Below are positions 2,981 to 43,214 of a stretch of DNA of 43,894 bases, piece after piece. How positions within the stretch are numbered: the stretch's first letter is position 1; each line of letters begins with the position of its first letter. The stretch spans positions 1 to 43,894 of the forward strand of contig VGRY01000030.1 of the NCBI GenBank assembly GCA_016875195.1, read 5' to 3'. The DNA comes from Deltaproteobacteria bacterium. Its GTDB lineage: Bacteria > Desulfobacterota > BSN033 > UBA1163. The position numbers and the translations under genes are program-made. The notes under the pieces are model-generated. The model was not told where the DNA came from. It was given only the letters and a program-made list of their open reading frames with translations, and searched no databases.

Positions 2981-3141
2981 CCCCCCTCTAATTTAAGCTT
3001 TTCGCGTCCCATAAGTCAGGCCGCTTGACACAAGGTTTCTTTGGTTTTCGAGCTATTAAGGGGTGAAATTCGAATATCGAAGCACGAAATTCGAAATCAA
3101 AATATTCCAAATTCGGGTTCATCCGGGAATTGAGTGGGTAA

Positions 3142-3164
3142 CCTCCCCTTAGGTTAAGGGGAGG
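3142..3164. repeat. Palindrome of the CCTCCCCTTAA family
   Basis: CCTCCCCTT and AAGGGGAGG pair around a 5-nt centre. It supplies the last codons and the TAA stop of the leftward DUF559 gene. The same family recurs at 5713, 9937 and 40250. Confidence 0.85.
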
Positions 3165-3526
3165 TGGGGAGGGGTTACTTTTCGTCCCAGCTCAGATAGG
3201 ACGCTTTCCATATCAAGCAATACCTCATTGTCCCAAAACCGCATAACCTCAATCCCCTTGACTTTCAGGTATTCTGAACGAACGGCATCATATTTCTTAG
3301 CCTCGCATCGGTTGTGCTGTCCCCCGTCTAATTCTACTGCGAGTTTCATGTTTGGGCAATAAAAATCTAAAATATAAGGCCCAATGCTGTATTGGCGGAA
3401 AAATTTCATTCCATAGAACTGCTTGTTTCGGAGGTATGCCCAAAGGGCCTTTTCCGCATCCGTCTGATTACGCCTCAATTCCCTTCGTCGTTGCTTTAAT
3501 GCCAGGTCATTCTGAAGGTATTTCAT
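3149..3526 (-). CDS. DUF559 domain protein (Vsr/restriction-endonuclease-like fold)
   Basis: A 125-residue protein matching the DUF559 family, distantly related to very-short-patch-repair nucleases. Seen: a basic N-terminus (QRRRELRRNQTDAEKALWAYLRN), the family core FRQYSIGPYILDFYCP, then KLAVELDGGQH, whose Asp and Glu are the expected metal ligands, and a C-terminal helix. The length is normal. The last residues (VTPPHLPLT) and the stop are encoded by a palindromic repeat. The only ribosome-binding-like sequence, GGGGGAG just before the ATG, comes from the flanking repeat at the other side. The gene therefore fits exactly between two repeats and looks like cargo of a small mobile unit. Nuclease activity is inferred from the family only. 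Confidence 0.85.
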   Translation of the reverse strand: MKYLQNDLALKQRRRELRRNQTDAEKALWAYLRNKQFYGMKFFRQYSIGPYILDFYCPNMKLAVELDGGQHNRCEAKKYDAVRSEYLKVKGIEVMRFWDNEVLLDMESVLSELGRKVTPPHLPLT

Positions 3527-3538
3527 AACTCCCCCTCA

Positions 3539-3562
3539 CCCCCTCTTATACTTAAGAGGGGG
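3539..3562. repeat. C-rich/G-rich palindrome upstream of the DUF559 gene
   Basis: CCCCCTCTTA pairs with TAAGAGGGGG around a short centre. The adjacent CCCCCTC at 3531-3537 reads GAGGGGG on the minus strand and supplies the likely ribosome binding site of the DUF559 gene. Confidence 0.75.
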
Positions 3563-3741
3563 AAAAGCACCCATAAAAAAGCCGGATGAATCCAAATTCG
3601 AAACATACAACATGAAAGAACACGTTTGAGGCATTTGAGATTCGGATTTTCAGTGCCAATTGCCGACAATAGATATCTCTTGCGGCCAGCAATGCCACTT
3701 ATGGGTAAGGATTAGTAATATAAGGGGGGAGGTAACGGCGG

Positions 3742-13734: not shown

Positions 13735-14363
13735 CTGCTGGGTTCCTCTCGCCAGTTATCGTAATAATTCTTGTAAGTTGAACTCTTAACAAAATTTTTT
13801 GGATAGACCTTTGTCTGTAAAGTTACATTCTCACCGCTTGCTAATGAAAGAGTAAACGACAAAGTAATCTCATTTTCATTGTTGGTAGCTACTGCCCCCC
13901 GGGTCACTGTGAATGAAGACACATTTGAGGCAAGTGGACTTGTCGCCGCAGGGGATGTCTTAACTTTTTGAAGGGTTGAGCCGGTTAACTGGAAGGTGAG
14001 GGTTTCGTTAAGTCCATCCTGGGCTGTGGCGTTGGTTCTCTGGAAAACGATGGTATTGCCCGAGCCTCCTGCGGCAGGCGTGGTGATGCTTCTTGCATCC
14101 CGAATATCTCTGACCATTCTCTCGAGCGCCAGTTTTCCCTCGTCGAAAAGGGTTTTTTGATTGACCGTCATTGTATAGACTTTCAAACTATTAATCAAGA
14201 AATAAATCATAATACCCGAAGCGATCGATAAAATGACGATCACCACAATGATTTCGATGAGGGTGAAACCCTCGATACCGAAAGTTCGGAGTTCGGAGTT
14301 CGGAGTTCGGAGTTTTTTTGAAATATATTTATACGGACTGAATATGTTCATCATCTTTTTCAT
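13731..14363 (-). CDS. Pseudopilin, GspJ/MshO-like, with repeat in the leader
   Basis: A prepilin-like protein with the cleavage motif EG|FTLIEIIVVIVILSI, including Glu at position 5, followed by a secreted domain (DEGKLALERMVRDIRDARSI is typical of GspJ/MshO). I prefer the ATG at 14363, which has GGAG just upstream. The frame also opens at 14438, but that start has no ribosome binding site and overlaps the previous gene. With the chosen start the protein has 210 residues and the leader 32. Part of the leader (KLRTPNSELRTFG) is encoded by GTTCGGA tandem units (14282-14313). The stop overlaps the TTG of the next gene. Confidence 0.8.
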   Translation of the reverse strand: MKKMMNIFSPYKYISKKLRTPNSELRTFGIEGFTLIEIIVVIVILSIASGIMIYFLINSLKVYTMTVNQKTLFDEGKLALERMVRDIRDARSITTPAAGGSGNTIVFQRTNATAQDGLNETLTFQLTGSTLQKVKTSPAATSPLASNVSSFTVTRGAVATNNENEITLSFTLSLASGENVTLQTKVYPKNFVKSSTYKNYYDNWREEPSS

Positions 14364-14397
14364 TTTCTCCGAACTACGAAATACTTGCTCCGAACTA
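14282..14397. repeat. Inverted arms of GTTCGGA-type units around the leader of a pseudopilin gene
   Basis: The left arm (14282-14313) has four direct units of AGTTCGG spacing. The right arm (14368-14397) has TCCGAACTACGAA and CTCCGAACT. On the minus strand the right arm ends GGAG-AAA-ATG, so the repeat supplies both the ribosome-binding-like GGAG and the ATG at 14363. Confidence 0.75.
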
Positions 14398-14403
14398 TTT
14401 TCA

Positions 14404-14901
14404 TTACGGAAACCTTGTGACCACTGAATAGATTTCATAAGTGTCGTTTTGTGGATCGCTTACCCGAACTCTCATTCGTTTGTAATTTGTGTCTGGGCCT
14501 AAACTTCCTAAAGCATTGAGATCATTGTTTGGCACATAAAGGATTTCATATTGGCACTGGTAGCCAGAAGGTGGTGAAGTCTGGCATGCAGTAAGGTTAG
14601 TAGGATTGAGTTGTGGTCCACCATAATTGTATTTCATTCGGTATTCCATCTCCTCATGGGCGAGATACATAGCCTTGGTTGCCATTTCTGGCTTCTGGCT
14701 TCCTTTAATACCCGTTGCAAAGGGGACGATGATGACCGGCAAAAGAATCCCCGCCATCACAATGAGGATGATGACTTCGATAAGGGTGAAACCCTGTTGA
14801 AATACAAGTTCGAAGTTGGGAGTTCGGAGTTCGGAGTTTTTAAACTCTAATCTTTTAAAATGTTTTTTTAATGGTTTAATTGTTTTTCTCATCTTTGTCA
14901 T
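14404..14901 (-). CDS. Pseudopilin, GspI/PilV/MshD-like, with repeat in the leader
   Basis: A 165-residue prepilin-like protein. The leader of 37 residues ends QQG, followed by FTLIEVIILIVMAGILLPV with Glu at position 5. The mature part includes the MYLAHEEMEYRM segment typical of the GspI/MshD class and a Cys pair (CQTSPPSGYQC). Leader residues KNSELRTPNFEL are encoded by GTTCGGA-type repeats (14806-14837). The ATG at 14901 lies at the end of a repeat arm, GGAG-TAA-ATG, so the start is provided by repeat DNA; the ATG at 14892 is an alternative. It follows the GspH-like gene across about 130 bp of tandem repeats. Confidence 0.8.
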   Translation of the reverse strand: MTKMRKTIKPLKKHFKRLEFKNSELRTPNFELVFQQGFTLIEVIILIVMAGILLPVIIVPFATGIKGSQKPEMATKAMYLAHEEMEYRMKYNYGGPQLNPTNLTACQTSPPSGYQCQYEILYVPNNDLNALGSLGPDTNYKRMRVRVSDPQNDTYEIYSVVTRFP

Positions 14902-15035
14902 TTACTCCGAACTACGAACTCATTACTCCGAACTGCTAATTATTATCATTTTCTCCGAGCTACGAACTCCTAACCCCGAACTGCTAATTATTATCATTTT
15001 CTCCGAACTACGAACTCATTACTCCGAACTGTTAA
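14806..15035. repeat. GTTCGGAG/CTCCGAAC repeat arms, tandemly amplified
   Basis: The left arm (14806-14837) contains GAGTTCGGAGTTCGGAG. The right side (14903-15035) has about two and a half tandem copies of a unit of roughly 60 bp made of CTCCGAACTACGAACT, ATTACTCCGAACTG and CTAATTATTATCATTTT. Read on the minus strand each unit holds GGAG-AAAATG, a ribosome-binding-like site and start codon with a short reading frame. There are no unique spacers. Confidence 0.8.
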
Positions 15036-15523
15036 TTAATACTCACCTTTCCTGTATAGTTTGAGACACTGATAGTCTTTGATCCTCCACTTCCGGAAAC
15101 CGTGACTGATCCTCCTCCACCTGTTGTGGGTTCGCCAAGGGAATTGAAGGTCAAGGTTAATGCAGAGGTGGCTACGCCAGCCGGGAGTCGGCCCGATGGA
15201 TCTAAGTTGTTGGAGGGCGCAAAAGTATAAGAATTTCCACCGGAAAACGTGATGGTCTTTGAAGTTCGGGTAGACATGGCACATTCCTGGGCATACCGGA
15301 TATCTGAGGCAACCATATGAGCGGCACCTTCCACAGAGGCTTTTGGGGCCATGTCAAAACCCATCCTGGGGATAGCCACAGCCGCCAGTATGGCAATGAC
15401 AATCATTATGAGAATAACTTCAATAAGAGACATTCCCGATTGCGGATTGCGGATTTTGGATTGTGGATTTAAAATTCCGAATTCCGAAATCCGAAATCCG
15501 AAATTGAAAGGTTCAACGTTCAT
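15032..15523 (-). CDS. Pseudopilin, GspH/MshC-like, with repeat in the leader
   Basis: A 163-residue prepilin-like protein. The cleavage motif SG|MSLIEVILIMIVIAILAAVAIPRM has Glu at position 5. The mature domain carries the GspH-type segment AAHMVASDIRYAQECAMSTRTS, then Gly/Ser-rich strands. I chose the ATG at 15523 because AGGTGA lies 7 nt upstream, inside the end of the GspF-like gene; a TTG at 15526 precedes it. The 30-residue leader is almost wholly repeat-encoded (FGFRISEFGILNPQSK, from AAATCCG units at 15431-15506). The start signal lies outside the repeat, so the repeat must be translated if the pseudopilin is made. Confidence 0.82.
   Translation of the reverse strand: MNVEPFNFGFRISEFGILNPQSKIRNPQSGMSLIEVILIMIVIAILAAVAIPRMGFDMAPKASVEGAAHMVASDIRYAQECAMSTRTSKTITFSGGNSYTFAPSNNLDPSGRLPAGVATSALTLTFNSLGEPTTGGGGSVTVSGSGGSKTISVSNYTGKVSIN
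15431..15506. repeat. Inverted arms of ATCCGAA/TTCGGAT-type units in a pseudopilin leader
   Basis: The left half (15431-15464) has direct units GATTGCG, GATTGCG, GATTTTG, GATTGTG. The right half (15466-15506) has CCGAATT, CCGAAAT, CCGAAAT, CCGAAAT. The two halves are roughly reverse complements with almost no loop. Confidence 0.75.
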
Positions 15524-16747: not shown

Positions 16748-17047
16748 TTCTTTTACCCTTTTAAGATTTAGGGAGATAAGGAGATGGGGCGATAGGGAGC
16801 CCATCTTCTTAAAACCCATCCAATCTTCAGCGTTGTTTCGCTCCAGGTAATAACCATGGGAGAGGATCGTTGATTAGACTAACGATCTTACCCAGGATAT
16901 TGTCGTAATTGCTCAATAATTCTTGTCCCGTTTCATTTAAGAGATAACCGCACTTAATAGCAAACTCCAGCCAAACCTGAGTTTCAGCTGCTTCTGCTTC
17001 AGCATCACTCAGTTTGCTTACGAATGAAGCTTCATAACGCCTTTTTC

Positions 17048-17317
17048 GCCCCTCCGGGTCAGAGACCCAGGAATTTGTCCAAAGCTTTTTTCGAATGCTT
17101 CAGTGAACGTTCTATCCATCTAGCTTCTGAACGTAAAGAATATTTTTTGCAGGCGATTATCCGCCAAGGTAAGCCAGCCTTAGTTGATTTCACACGGCCA
17201 GCATTGTGTTCTTTTAATCTTTTGTTTAAATCGTTAGTATGTCCTATGTAACGTCTGCCTGTAAGATTGCTATGGAGGATATATACAAACATTATTCTGC
17301 CCCTCTGGGTCGGAGAC
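17048..17317. mobile_element. GIY-YIG unit bounded by 19-bp direct repeats
   Basis: GCCCCTCCGGGTCAGAGAC (17048-17066) and GCCCCTCTGGGTCGGAGAC (17299-17317) are direct repeats differing at two positions. They mark the borders of the insertion in the four-helix-bundle gene. One supplies the stop codon of the GIY-YIG gene and the other a purine-rich sequence before its start. The same two variants stand adjacent without cargo at 13618-13651. Confidence 0.75.
17059..17292 (-). CDS. GIY-YIG nuclease domain protein (UPF0213/Slx1-like)
   Basis: A 77-residue protein consisting of one GIY-YIG domain: MFVYILHSNLTGRRYIGHTN with the paired VYI and YIG strands, then LNKRLKEHNAG, the catalytic-type Arg in the helix (KRLKEH), and the C-terminal EARWIERSLKHSKKALDKF segment with the conserved Glu. 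The length is normal for single-domain members. ATG at 17292 overlaps the stop of the four-helix-bundle N-half (TAATG). TTG at 17319 is possible but would add repeat-encoded residues. The TGA stop lies inside the 3' border repeat. Family nucleases cut DNA in homing or repair; mobility of this unit is inferred from its position. Confidence 0.88.
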   Translation of the reverse strand: MFVYILHSNLTGRRYIGHTNDLNKRLKEHNAGRVKSTKAGLPWRIIACKKYSLRSEARWIERSLKHSKKALDKFLGL

Positions 17318-17631
17318 AAGCCTCAGCAAGATTGGTACAAACCGATCTCGATGAACGACGGATTTGATCTGTCAGTGAATAACGCTCCTCGACCGGAAAT
17401 GATCTGCTTTTTTCAAATATCTGCATAGCCGCTTCAAAGGCCATTTTATAAACTTCTAAATCCCGATGAGTCCGAATCAACTTCTTTTCCATTATTTTTA
17501 TCCCCCCATCTCCTTATCTCCCAATCTCCCCATCTTTCTTTTTATCACCCTATCTCCCTATCCCCACAACTCCCCATCTCCCCATCTCCCCAACTCTTAA
17601 CCTAACTCCGAACTACGAACTCCGGACTGAA

Positions 17632-19611: not shown

Positions 19612-19845
19612 TTATCTTTTTTCCTCCTGGGCATGGTTATCTCTTCCGGATAGCCATTCGTCAAGAGCATCCTTCTTGAAGCGCCAGCTCCCCCCAATCT
19701 TTCGGCAGGGGATATCACCGTTTTTCGCAAGCCGGTAGATCGTCCGGACATGGATGCTCAGATAATCAGCCGCTTCCCGCGGTGTCATGATGGCTTTAGT
19801 TCGGAGCTCTGAGTTCGTAGTTCGTAGTTCAGAATATTTATCCAT
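19612..19845 (-). CDS. Small helix-turn-helix protein, excisionase/MerR-like
   Basis: A 77-residue protein with the DNA-binding core MTPREAADYLSIHVRTIYRLAKNG, then IPCRKIGGSWRFKKDALDEWL, as in HTH_17 excisionase-family proteins. Such proteins act as small regulators in many contexts, so no mobile-element role follows. ATG at 19845 has AAGGAG about 9 nt upstream, so translation likely starts there. Residues 5-16 (SELRTTNSELRT) are then repeat-encoded and precede the folded domain. An internal ATG at 19788 would remove them but has no ribosome binding site. The stop directly abuts the start of the receiver-kinase gene, suggesting coexpression. Confidence 0.82.
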   Translation of the reverse strand: MDKYSELRTTNSELRTKAIMTPREAADYLSIHVRTIYRLAKNGDIPCRKIGGSWRFKKDALDEWLSGRDNHAQEEKR

Positions 19846-19985
19846 TTTTATTTCTCCTTACTGTATTGAAAGTTAAAATACGGAGTACTTGGTTCGGAGC
19901 TTTTTTAAAATGACTCAATAAAATTTGATTAATTTTATTATCATTGTCTCCGAACTCCGAACTAATTACTCCGAACTACTTTAGA
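19799..19985. repeat. GTTCGGAG/CTCCGAAC arms around the HTH gene start and 3' of the large kinase
   Basis: Units AGTTCGGAG, GAGTTCGTAGTTCGTAGTTC (19799-19830) and GGTTCGGAG (19881-19889) face CTCCGAACTCCGAACT and ACTCCGAACTAC (19947-19980). Read on the minus strand the right arm runs into GGAGACAATGATAATAAAA, a GGAG-ATGA junction like those at 14363 and 14901. Confidence 0.7.
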
Positions 19986-28355: not shown

Positions 28356-28830
28356 CAAATCCGAAATTCGAATATCGAAATCCGAAACAAATTCGAAATT
28401 CAAATGACCAAATTTTCGAAACACTATTCGCTCTTTCTTAGAATGGACCCAAAGATATTCATTAATTCTGAAGCCTCATTCTCTAATATCTTGCGTTCAT
28501 TTTCTAAATCCGCCTCATCAACAGTATCTATTAATCTCAACCAATACCGGCTTTCTTTAGCTTCTTTCCTGCAAATCTTTATCCTCACAATAAAATCCTT
28601 CTTACTTAGGGCCTCATTCGCTTCAATATAATTAGCTCCAACAGAACCGGACGCCTTGATCAGTTGTTTTCCATCTTCAATATTTGCAGTTGTTTTAAAT
28701 AGTTTTTTTACAAAAGCCCTAGCCGATTTTGCAAATCTTAATGTTCGTTCCTCTAAATCATATGTTTTTAAGTTTTGAGTTTCGGTCATTTGAAATTGTT
28801 TCGAATTTCGGATTTCGTGCTTCGAATTTA
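28356..28830. mobile_element. Inverted-arm element carrying an intact four-helix-bundle gene
   Basis: The left arm (28356-28424) and right arm (28776-28830) are approximate reverse complements built of CGAAATTCGAA, ATCCGAAAC and CAAATGACC units. The loop is exactly the four-helix-bundle ORF: its ATG lies in the AAATGACC motif of one arm and its TAG abuts the TTCGAAACAC of the other. A nearly identical pair of arms with no gene stands at 38737-38880. Confidence 0.8.
28424..28789 (-). CDS. Four-helix-bundle protein (S23/IVS, Avd-like family)
   Basis: A 121-residue all-helical protein of the TIGR02436 family: DLEERTLRFAKSARAFVKKL, then IKASGSVGANYIEANEALSK, with the family-typical 'GSVGANYIEA' turn, KKDFIVRIKICRKEAKESRYWL and a last helix. 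Relatives are encoded inside 23S rRNA intervening sequences, as Avd next to diversity-generating retroelements, or alone; no reverse transcriptase or rRNA is in this window. The ORF occupies the loop between inverted repeat arms and has no clear ribosome binding site; it may depend on readthrough from the FeS gene upstream. Its insertion separates two subunits of one enzyme without damaging either. Function unknown. Confidence 0.88.
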   Translation of the reverse strand: MTETQNLKTYDLEERTLRFAKSARAFVKKLFKTTANIEDGKQLIKASGSVGANYIEANEALSKKDFIVRIKICRKEAKESRYWLRLIDTVDEADLENERKILENEASELMNIFGSILRKSE

Positions 28831-29475: not shown

Positions 29476-29505
29476 TACAAAGATTTTCAAACAGCTAAAG
29501 TGATA

Positions 29506-29613
29506 CCAATAACCAAATTCCAAGATCCAAATAATAATCAATCACCAAACCCCAAATGACCAAACTAAATTTGGTCATTGGTTATTGGTGCTTGGTGTTT
29601 GGTTATTATTATC
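29506..29613. repeat. Inverted arms of ACCAAAT-type units, loop collapsed
   Basis: The left arm has units CCAATAACCAAATTCCAAG and CACCAAACCCC. The right arm is its approximate reverse complement (TTGGTTATTGGTGC, TTGGTGTTTGG). The arms meet at a perfect 10-bp stem, AATGACCAAA (29555-29564) with TTTGGTCATT (29570-29579), and only 5 nt between. The right arm runs up to the stop of the FAD-subunit gene. Confidence 0.8.
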
Positions 29614-36778: not shown

Positions 36779-36876
36779 TTGATTACTTAGATTACAAAAA
36801 ATGATTTCACAGATTTTTTTTAAATTGCAATGCCCTCTAATCTGTGCAATCGGAAGTTGACCGGTGTAATCTGAGA
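36779..36876. repeat. Inverted arms of GATTACxxAGATT-type units, nearly empty loop
   Basis: The left arm TTGATTACTTAGATTAC plus AATGATTTCACAGATT (36779-36815) faces AATCTGTGCAATC and GGTGTAATCTGAG (36838-36876). The loop is about 22 bp. This occupies the middle of the 404-bp divergent region 36682-37085; the promoter and operator at its right are listed separately, and 36682-36778 shows nothing recognised. Confidence 0.65.
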
Positions 36877-38063: not shown

Positions 38064-38190
38064 CACCAAATTCCAAGCACCAAATAACAAATAAATACCG
38101 ATGACCAAATTAAAAATGTTTTAACCTTCTTGTATAGGTCATTGGAAATTGGAGCTTATTTGGAATTTGTGATTTGTGATTTGAAATTTG
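38064..38190. repeat. Inverted arms of ACCAAAT/ATTTGGT-type units between dctP and dctQ
   Basis: The left arm has AGCACCAAATTCCAAGC, ACCAAATAACAAAT and GATGACCAAATT (38064-38113). The right arm has GGTCATTGGAAATTGG, TTATTTGGAATTTG and GATTTGTGATTTG (38137-38190). The loop is about 24 bp. The inner end again carries ATGACC. Confidence 0.75.
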
Positions 38191-38243: not shown

Positions 38244-38735
38244 ATGGACTGTTTCTTTGAATATATTGAAAAAATAGTGTCAGTCCTCTGTAAAATATTT
38301 GTCTTTTTTGCCTCGCTCATGATGGCTGCTTTGGTGGTTATTGTCTGTATCGACCTTGGCCTGAGATATTTTTTAAATGCTCCCCTTCTGTGGGGCACAG
38401 AAGTCACAGAGATATTGCTCCTATACATCACCTTTCTTGGAACAGCCTGGGTCTTTAAAGAGGATGGACATGTGGTGGTGGATGTGTTGATCGGCAAGGC
38501 TACAGGAAAGCGGAAAAAGATATTGATGACTTTCAGTTATGTTTTGATCACCATTGTGTCTGTTGTCCTCATCTATTATGGATTTTACGCGACCTACGAT
38601 CACTACAAAAGAGGTGTATTCAATCCGACGATTTTAGAGACACCCATTGCGCTTATTATCATGATCATCCCCATCGGAAGCATCCCCCTTTTTTTGGAGG
38701 TTTTGGTCAAAGGATGGAAGCTATTAAAACAATAA
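38244..38735 (+). CDS. dctQ: TRAP transporter small permease (DctQ family), second system
   Basis: A 163-residue protein with four membrane segments, starting MDCFFEYIEKIVSVLCKIF. Family pattern: KEDGHVVVDVLIGKATGKRKK. I start it at ATG 38244, preceded by AGGTGGGA; the longer frame from 38130 reads through the repeat arm and hairpin and is not plausible. It is followed by a repeat element and then the large permease gene. Confidence 0.9.
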   Translation: MDCFFEYIEKIVSVLCKIFVFFASLMMAALVVIVCIDLGLRYFLNAPLLWGTEVTEILLLYITFLGTAWVFKEDGHVVVDVLIGKATGKRKKILMTFSYVLITIVSVVLIYYGFYATYDHYKRGVFNPTILETPIALIIMIIPIGSIPLFLEVLVKGWKLLKQ

Positions 38736-38736
38736 A

Positions 38737-38880
38737 TTCGAAATTCGAATATCGAAATCCGAAACAAATCCGAATATCGAATGACCAAATATTTCAAACA
38801 GGATATTTTATTTAGAGTTGAAAATTCGGTAATTTGATATTGTTTCGAAATTCGGATTTCGTATTTCGGATTTTTTGCAA
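38737..38880. repeat. Inverted arms of AATTCGAA/ATCCGAAA units, empty loop
   Basis: The left arm (38737-38800) and right arm (38822-38875) match those that enclose the four-helix-bundle gene at 28356-28830 unit by unit, including ATCGAAATCCGAAAC and GAATGACCAAAT. Here the loop is only about 20 bp of AT-rich DNA and holds no ORF. It sits between dctQ and dctM. Confidence 0.8.
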
Positions 38881-42869: not shown

Positions 42870-43214
42870 TTTCCCTCCTCTTGAGGTACTAAACGTGTCC
42901 TATAAGTTGGGGGCTGGACACAAGCATCTGTTGGTGCGTGTACGGCAAGGGATTGGAAATTCGAATATCGAAGCACGAAATTCGAAACAAATCCGAATTT
43001 CAAATGTTCCAAATTCGAAACATACAGATCACAAAAGCACGTTTTGGTCATTTGGAATTTAGATTTTGGTCATTGTTTCGGATTGGTCCTAAGAGGACGC
43101 TTCGCCCGATATTCAGATTTTGGATTTTTACCACGGCTTAGCTACATGATATCCCCTGTGTCTAACAGTCTGACTTATGGGTAAGGATAAGCTTAAGGTA
43201 AGAGGGGGAGGGGG
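42870..43214. mobile_element. MITE-like element related to the one at 2984-3735
   Basis: The right end (43152-43214) holds TGTGTC, TGACTTATGGGTAAGGA, AAGCTTAA and AGAGGGGG, matching the reverse of the left end at 2984-3035. Its own left end (42870-42925) is a weaker inverted match (ACTTATAGG, TGTGTCC). GAAATTCGAA-type arms fill the interior (42955-43080), including ATATCGAAGCACGAAATTCG shared with 3072-3091. It fills most of the 519-bp gap 42742-43260; no gene is seen there. Confidence 0.6.

Follow-up and report, generated by a model that had tools for sequence, protein, structure and literature searches.

The locus at 28356-28830 raises the question of whether a gene for a small four-helix-bundle (4HB) protein and the inverted repeats enclosing it form a mobile element together, as the first-pass annotation had proposed. 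The window, i.e. the whole stretch of 43,894 nt analysed here, is contig C30 of a draft genome of 4.08 Mb. At this locus, a 121-aa 4HB gene occupies the loop of two facing arms made of degenerate 7-8-nt repeats built on the word CGAAATTC, and this intact copy spans ~470 nt. The gene (28424-28789, minus strand) has its ATGACC start at the edge of the 5′ arm (28780-28830, CGAAGCACGAAATCCGAAATTCGAAAC.., detector score 51, see below), confirming what had been read from the letters, and a mirror ATGACC is found at 28404, at the inner edge of the 3′ arm (28358-28412), which carries the reverse complement word. Complementarity between 28364-28387 and 28806-28829 amounts to 88%. The neighbours are the genes of a [2Fe-2S] protein and of a molybdopterin-domain (xanthine-dehydrogenase-like) protein, which we take to be CoxS and XDH and name as such below.

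The product of 28424-28789 belongs to the S23/23S_rRNA_IVP/TIGR02436 family, as it exceeds the curated cut-offs of both PF05635 (Pfam, 47.8 bits for a cut-off of 33.8, E 1.8e-12) and TIGR02436 (NCBIfam, 65.4 bits for a cut-off of 24, E 4.6e-18), and has a structure predicted by AF2 to consist of four helices, with 2rld as the closest solved structure. Residues Q42, S49, N53, E56 and E79 are invariant among 21 aligned sequences, and the protein is under purifying selection (dN/dS of 0.05-0.16, from those 6 pairs, among 18 printed, that had an estimable dS). The loop contains no other gene, the 4HB protein has no further Pfam match, and no recognisable transposase was found in the element.

Facing arms were detected as 6-mer matches between 60-nt boxes and their reverse complements (at least 3 diagonals). 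As a null for the window, 40 dinucleotide shuffles yielded, in total, a single box scoring 15 or more. Facing arms had been listed at 13 loci of the window, and 8 of them score at least 15 (14282, 14806, 16767, 19799, 28356, 29506, 38064 and 38737). The locus at 42955 (empty element, 42958-43126) scores only 13, yet the family model of the dispersed CGAAATTC repeats matches it over its full length (4.3e-22). The score of 10 at 36779 is inside the null range, and 8118 and 15431 stay below 10, with repeats visible by eye. Finally, 3064 is missed by the detector and by the CGAAATTC family model; by eye, the locus resembles a related copy of the 42955 element, in which a left part (3064-3117) and a right part (3591-3650) are separated by a 473-nt unit carrying a DUF559 gene.

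The idea that the window contains versions of the same arms proved partly right, as several different repeat words are present. Besides 42955, the CGAAATTC family is represented by an empty element of full length (138 nt, 38735-38872, score 34), and its model also matches the empty element at 38066-38185, built on the word CCAAATTCC (score 17). Another empty element, with the word CCAAATAACC (29502-29613, score 15), does have ATGACC at the inner edges of both arms, as had been noticed. The word TTCGGAG forms empty elements at 14283-14396 (score 32, near an ORF start) and 19797-19978 (score 28), as well as an element with more than one right-hand arm at 14800-15037 (scores 30 and 29). By eye, the sequence downstream of the two TTCGGAG palindromes near ORF starts (14283-14396 and 14800-15037) reads like a prepilin leader (GFTL), and these arms may be translated, or may shift the start. 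The second 4HB gene of the window (16869-17453, minus strand) was also correctly placed within arms, of the word GGGAGAT (16761-16799 on its 3′ side, score 25, and 17499-17600 on its 5′ side); this copy is broken, with a GIY-YIG ORF inside (17083-17292).

Facing arms are abundant in the genome as a whole. In an unbiased sample of 960 kb, 94 boxes score 18 or more, and the loop is shorter than 150 nt in 79 of the 94 arm pairs; one shuffle per stretch gave one box of score 15-19 and none of 20 or more. Non-overlapping short-loop palindromes number 78 in these 960 kb (a few belong to other types of repeat), and 70 of the 78 have their midpoint outside ORFs of at least 100 codons, ORFs that cover 81% of the sequence. 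By proportion, a genome would contain ~330 palindromes, of many unrelated words. The empty ones are REPIN-like, in that they are inverted pairs of repeats, scattered over the genome and extragenic. Loci L025, L023 and L026 contain a further dispersed palindrome (TAGTGAACGACTT...TCATTGCGA) that has no relation to the word arms.

How constantly are 4HB genes associated with such arms? The genome has 17 TIGR02436 matches, corresponding to 15 genes, two of them split, and each of the 15 has facing arms close by on its two sides. Fourteen score at least 17; the weakest, on contig C55 and with a nested GIY-YIG ORF, scores 12, a value reached by shuffles too, and its arms are clear only by eye. In relatives, 16 of the 21 scored 4HB loci (29 were fetched) reach 12 and 5 stay below; three of the relatives' loci recur in a more distant set. 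The latter comprised the 80 best of 565 relatives, with loci taken from named genomes that span many phyla and include an ANME-1 archaeon (L213), and 75 had enough flank. A score of 12 is reached by 56 of the 75 and a score of 15 by 47, compared to 4 and 2 of 546 control windows from the same loci, and to 1 and 0 of the 75 when one flank was shuffled. The suggested enrichment of TIGR02436 genes in arms is thus observed, both in this genome and across phyla. Had 4HB genes occurred genome-wide without arms, the proposal would have failed; this is not what was observed here, though 19 of the 75 distant ones score below 12.

Both arms of an element have one word in common, and words differ between lineages (those of the printed arms include GTGTCCG, GTGTTAA, ATCAGGAT, TTCGGAG, AACGATGGACAATG, GGGACTA, AGTGACG and GTACCAA). 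A repeat lag of 7 nt fits best for 47 of the 75 elements, one of 8 nt for 26 and one of 6 nt for 2; among the same 75, the arm in gene orientation is purine-rich in 63, and the best partner of the left arm is its own right arm in 47. Word sharing, defined as a Jaccard value of at least 0.15, was compared with protein identity for 74 elements. The word is shared in 41 of 47 pairs with 4HB identity of 70% or more, in 18 of 42 pairs at 60-70%, in 9 of 393 at 50-60%, and in 9 of 2219 below 50%. The correlation (Mantel r=0.40) was reached by none of 2000 permutations, close pairs being mutually dependent and often from related hosts. We conclude that the word and the 4HB protein are co-inherited. 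Between three paralogues within the window's genome, synonymous codons differ at 44 of 83, 49 of 82 and 43 of 81 positions (null, 49-50), while the 5′ arms align at 37 of 45, 34 of 45 and 36 of 44 nt, and a 95-nt 3′ stretch, about a third of which is unrelated flank, at 65 of 83, 71 of 88 and 56 of 87. Words therefore appear constrained or homogenised, because the arms still align where synonymous codons are near random. An avoidance of homology between paralogues was also considered and rejected, the synonymous differences being close to random codon choice.

To relate empty and coding copies, one family, that of CGAAATTC, was modelled (the model picks up the CCAAAT word too). In 1.18 Mb of the genome, which include stretches chosen around 4HB genes, 67 full-length copies of 110 to 199 nt were found, and 92 loci with any match. 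AATGACC is held by 32 of the 67. The 36 copies that match end to end have fixed ends (all 36 are preceded by an A, and 35 are followed by a T); among them, duplications of the target, sought at 2-9 nt, were not clearly above chance. Transposon families that make no target duplications exist. The family has two different arms, which when compared by eye correspond to the 5′ and 3′ arms of the 4HB-bearing element. The marks of a DNA transposon with MITEs, namely ends that are conserved and derivatives with internal deletions, are thus found, and a derivative was seen directly at one site (see below). Of the 16 relatives searched, at least 11 have copies at other sites, among the matches listed, and further copies were found in congeners; G008 had no match among those listed. 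The most similar pair of copies is 97% identical, with similar flanks too. None of the 67 forms a near-identical pair with unrelated flanks, and as the best such pair is 89% identical, recent activity of the family is without support. A small nested hairpin (such as GGGCGAAGCGTCCGTCTCGGACCAAT) was noticed in one arm, at a similar position, in L026:4524-4680, L165:18466-18624 and L168:11922-12078.

The comparison of orthologous loci called for by the first-pass annotation was made at four junctions, where the arms separate two adjacent genes and sit shortly behind the stop codon of the first. At the CoxS/XDH junction, both genes were found in 9 relatives. The same arms with a 4HB gene are present in G011, and another word with another 4HB gene in G006, G009 and G013; remnants are left in G016 and G008, and a short wordy one in G015, and G002 has an empty palindrome of a third word. 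At this junction in G005 (L079), an ORF for a Y1-type (REP-associated-like) transposase was noticed by eye after a CGAAGCACGAAAC arm. At the 38735 site (6 relatives), different words occur in G002, G014, G015 and G016, a short one-word stretch in G009, and nothing in G010. The 4HB gene of the C22 site is absent from 6 of 6 relatives: an empty CGAAATTC pair is found in G004, ATCAGG in G003, other words in G007 and G002, another kind of sequence in G009, and no palindrome in G008. Lastly, at the 4HB site of C51 (L019, 6 relatives), arms and gene are present in G009, arms surround another sequence in G007, a trace of one arm remains in G004, and empty palindromes of another word are found in G001 and G002. 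In G003 the arms are kept with only the first 25 nt of the 4HB gene, which is most simply an in-place loss of the gene. Presence and absence are therefore both seen at these junctions, and unrelated families have repeatedly occupied a single one. Simple random transposition is insufficient as an explanation, because one orthologous junction often holds different words in different species.

The reading that we consider probable, from these sequence comparisons, is that of a transposon-like element whose sole gene encodes the 4HB protein, bordered by arms of a lineage-particular 7-8-nt word, and accompanied by non-autonomous derivatives. The proposed participation of the 4HB protein in a mobile element draws support from the 15 genes of 15 in arms and the 56 of 75 across phyla, from words that follow the protein, and from orthologous sites that differ in presence, word and content. 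Points against this reading include the absence of a catalytic domain in the element, the identity of only 89% of the best pair with unrelated flanks, the 4HB genes that score below 12 (19 of 75 distant ones and 5 of 21 in relatives), and the occupation of one junction by different words. The 'empty' palindromes would be MITE-like non-autonomous derivatives in which the ends are retained and the gene is largely gone. Like its solved relatives, the 4HB protein is probably an oligomer; it might bind its own word in the DNA and, once bound, bring the two arms together. Such paired ends could then let host enzymes, or an unrecognised activity of the 4HB protein itself, copy or move the element, and the empty copies would be moved in trans.

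An unlikely alternative is that the arms are an independent repeat class, a passive landing site, into whose pre-existing loops 4HB genes insert as the DUF559 unit does. Empty arms are indeed far commoner than filled ones, and unrelated units do nest in arms. One of them is the DUF559 unit of the window (3118-3590, 473 nt, ORF 3149-3526 on the minus strand), with its own ends TTCATCCGG / CCGGATGAA. It occurs in full at three other places (91-98% identity) and in part at two more, and perfect 8-nt target duplications border the three copies with both ends recognised (CCAAATTC in the window, TGAATTAT at L030 and TAAACTAT at L031). Only the window's copy was noticed within arms, among the copies seen, and none of the 7 DUF559 matches (6 loci, the window's included) reaches 12. 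DUF559 had been counted as a third cargo of the arms; this is rejected, as DUF559 belongs to a transposon-like unit of its own, which is nested within an empty element.

GIY-YIG genes were rejected as cargo too. The genome has 6 matches, two of which are inside 4HB genes, near the conserved NIAEG region, and of the 4 outside, the two that were scored have no arms (neither reaches 12). The enrichment expected for DUF559 and GIY-YIG genes in arms was not found among the matches scored. The GIY-YIG ORF sits inside a 4HB gene at two separate loci, 17083-17292 in the window and 19229-19441 on contig C55, and the insert of the window is flanked by a 19-nt near-repeat (17 of 19 identical), which suggests a further mobile unit that would target the 4HB gene. 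For the Y1 transposase, 11 of 12 matches score 10 or less (5 of the 12 loci are shortened by contig ends), and the remaining one scores 26 through a repeat that is unrelated by eye. We conclude that arm loops are not a general cargo system.

The landing-site explanation finds some support in one planctomycete. In this genome, G059, the element's word matches 74 times, compared to 0 in three other genomes, and the same pattern read backwards matches 0 times in G059 and 16 times in one of the three others. A facing partner is present at 2 of 15 distinct sites (30 fetched loci), one of them doubtful and a different array, so that this genome has the word mostly as single arms. Elsewhere, the element's word is confined to one contig in a Chloroploca genome, and 4 of 48 distant loci contained a second palindrome of the own word. 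The relation between coding and empty copies is therefore only partly supported beyond the phylum. Loci L314-L343 of G059 appear as composite intergenic arrays in which different words succeed each other, mostly with no facing partner. What speaks against a passive landing site is that all 4HB genes of the window's genome are in arms, while DUF559 genes elsewhere in it, GIY-YIG genes outside 4HB genes, and Y1 genes are not, as far as scored; that words track 4HB lineages across hosts, though close pairs are often from related hosts; and that one site, that of C51, shows both a gene-bearing and a gutted form.

It is likewise improbable that the element acts at the RNA level, like the intervening sequences (IVS) of 23S rRNA, with arms forming a long RNA stem that is cut by RNase III and with spread via RNA. 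The likeness is real: in Leptospira and Coxiella, the same 4HB family is encoded in the loop of terminal inverted repeats. In passages of PMC4990558, the IVS are called selfish and their stems are cut by RNase III, a role of the ORF in mobility is said to have been proposed earlier (citing Ralph and McClelland 1993), and TIGR02436/S23 proteins are described as having no known function. In contrast to the rRNA IVS, the elements reported here lie at intergenic junctions outside rRNA (the window copy is between two protein genes), have tandem 7-8-nt lineage words and many empty copies per genome, and bear no RNA-stem signature. Indeed, G-U-compatible mismatches on the sense strand were not in excess (88 vs 105, p=0.25, in 85 elements, a few near-identical). 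The RNA-stem model was rejected on this lack of a wobble signature, and a DNA-level role of the arms is argued for, since arm mismatches have no G-U-compatible preference. Moreover, no rRNA was detected by Rfam in the 20 weak-arm distant 4HB loci scanned, and no reverse transcriptase (RVT_1) in the window's genome, which is 87% complete, or in 8 of its 16 relatives. A retro-mechanism was rejected on the same absence from the window's genome.

Less probable still are host regulatory sites, i.e. arms at operon junctions acting as RNA-stability or termination elements, with the 4HB protein as their regulator. The position of the arms between genes, close after a stop codon, at the four junctions would fit, and there is a tendency to re-occupy orthologous junctions: of the 23 junctions occupied in the window's genome, 8 are also occupied in relatives, vs 3 of the 44 others, at a score threshold of 12 (Fisher p=0.006), and the figures are 11 of 38 vs 2 of 29 at a threshold of 10 (p=0.03), the 67 comparisons being interdependent and short palindromes being missed. 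Against them stand the junctions themselves, at each of which congeners may lack the arms or the gene or have another word, and the number of palindromes, ~330 per genome by proportion, with many unrelated words. Chance or low-complexity sequence can practically be discarded: it may account for 36779, 8118 and 15431, at or below the null, and is refuted for the main loci by the near absence of high-scoring boxes in the shuffles of the 960 kb and by the existence of orthologous and dispersed copies.

Among other known systems, REPIN/RAYT offers a close parallel, with dispersed extragenic palindromic non-autonomous units beside one coding copy, and with a specific repeat-protein pairing according to passages of PMC3116915. 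The differences are that RAYT is a Y1 tyrosine transposase, whereas the loop gene here encodes a 4HB protein with no known catalytic domain, and that REPINs are made of single REP hairpins, whereas the arms here are tandem words. The Avd protein of diversity-generating retroelements has a similar fold (8ub7 and 4dwl, TM-scores of 0.67-0.79 with Foldseek E values of only 0.13-0.28), but these retroelements comprise a reverse transcriptase, and the present element has none. As for the TAACTGA heptamers of Beggiatoaceae, they are also 7-nt intergenic repeats, whose mobility is discussed, with one inverted case, in passages of PMC4679880; they differ by being direct repeats of one shared heptamer, with no facing arms, and the terms 'S23' and 'four helix' are absent from the text of that paper. 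Among the open-licence papers searched, we found none that links TIGR02436/S23 proteins to such arms outside rRNA.

Beyond the transposon-like element of the window, we tentatively envisage a class of prokaryotic elements whose sole protein, a non-enzymatic 4HB, would read a private tandem 7-8-nt word, with word-protein coevolution, many independent families per genome, and the rRNA IVS as a special case. As part of this same tentative view, the class would range over Thermodesulfobacteriota, Bacteroidota, Planctomycetota, Cyanobacteria and an ANME-1 archaeon. If this is true, TIGR02436/S23 proteins would provide the specificity of a class of mobile DNA that is very common and has no name yet, which would fill intergenic space with palindromes and would move in the absence of any recognised recombinase, with a word-protein code.
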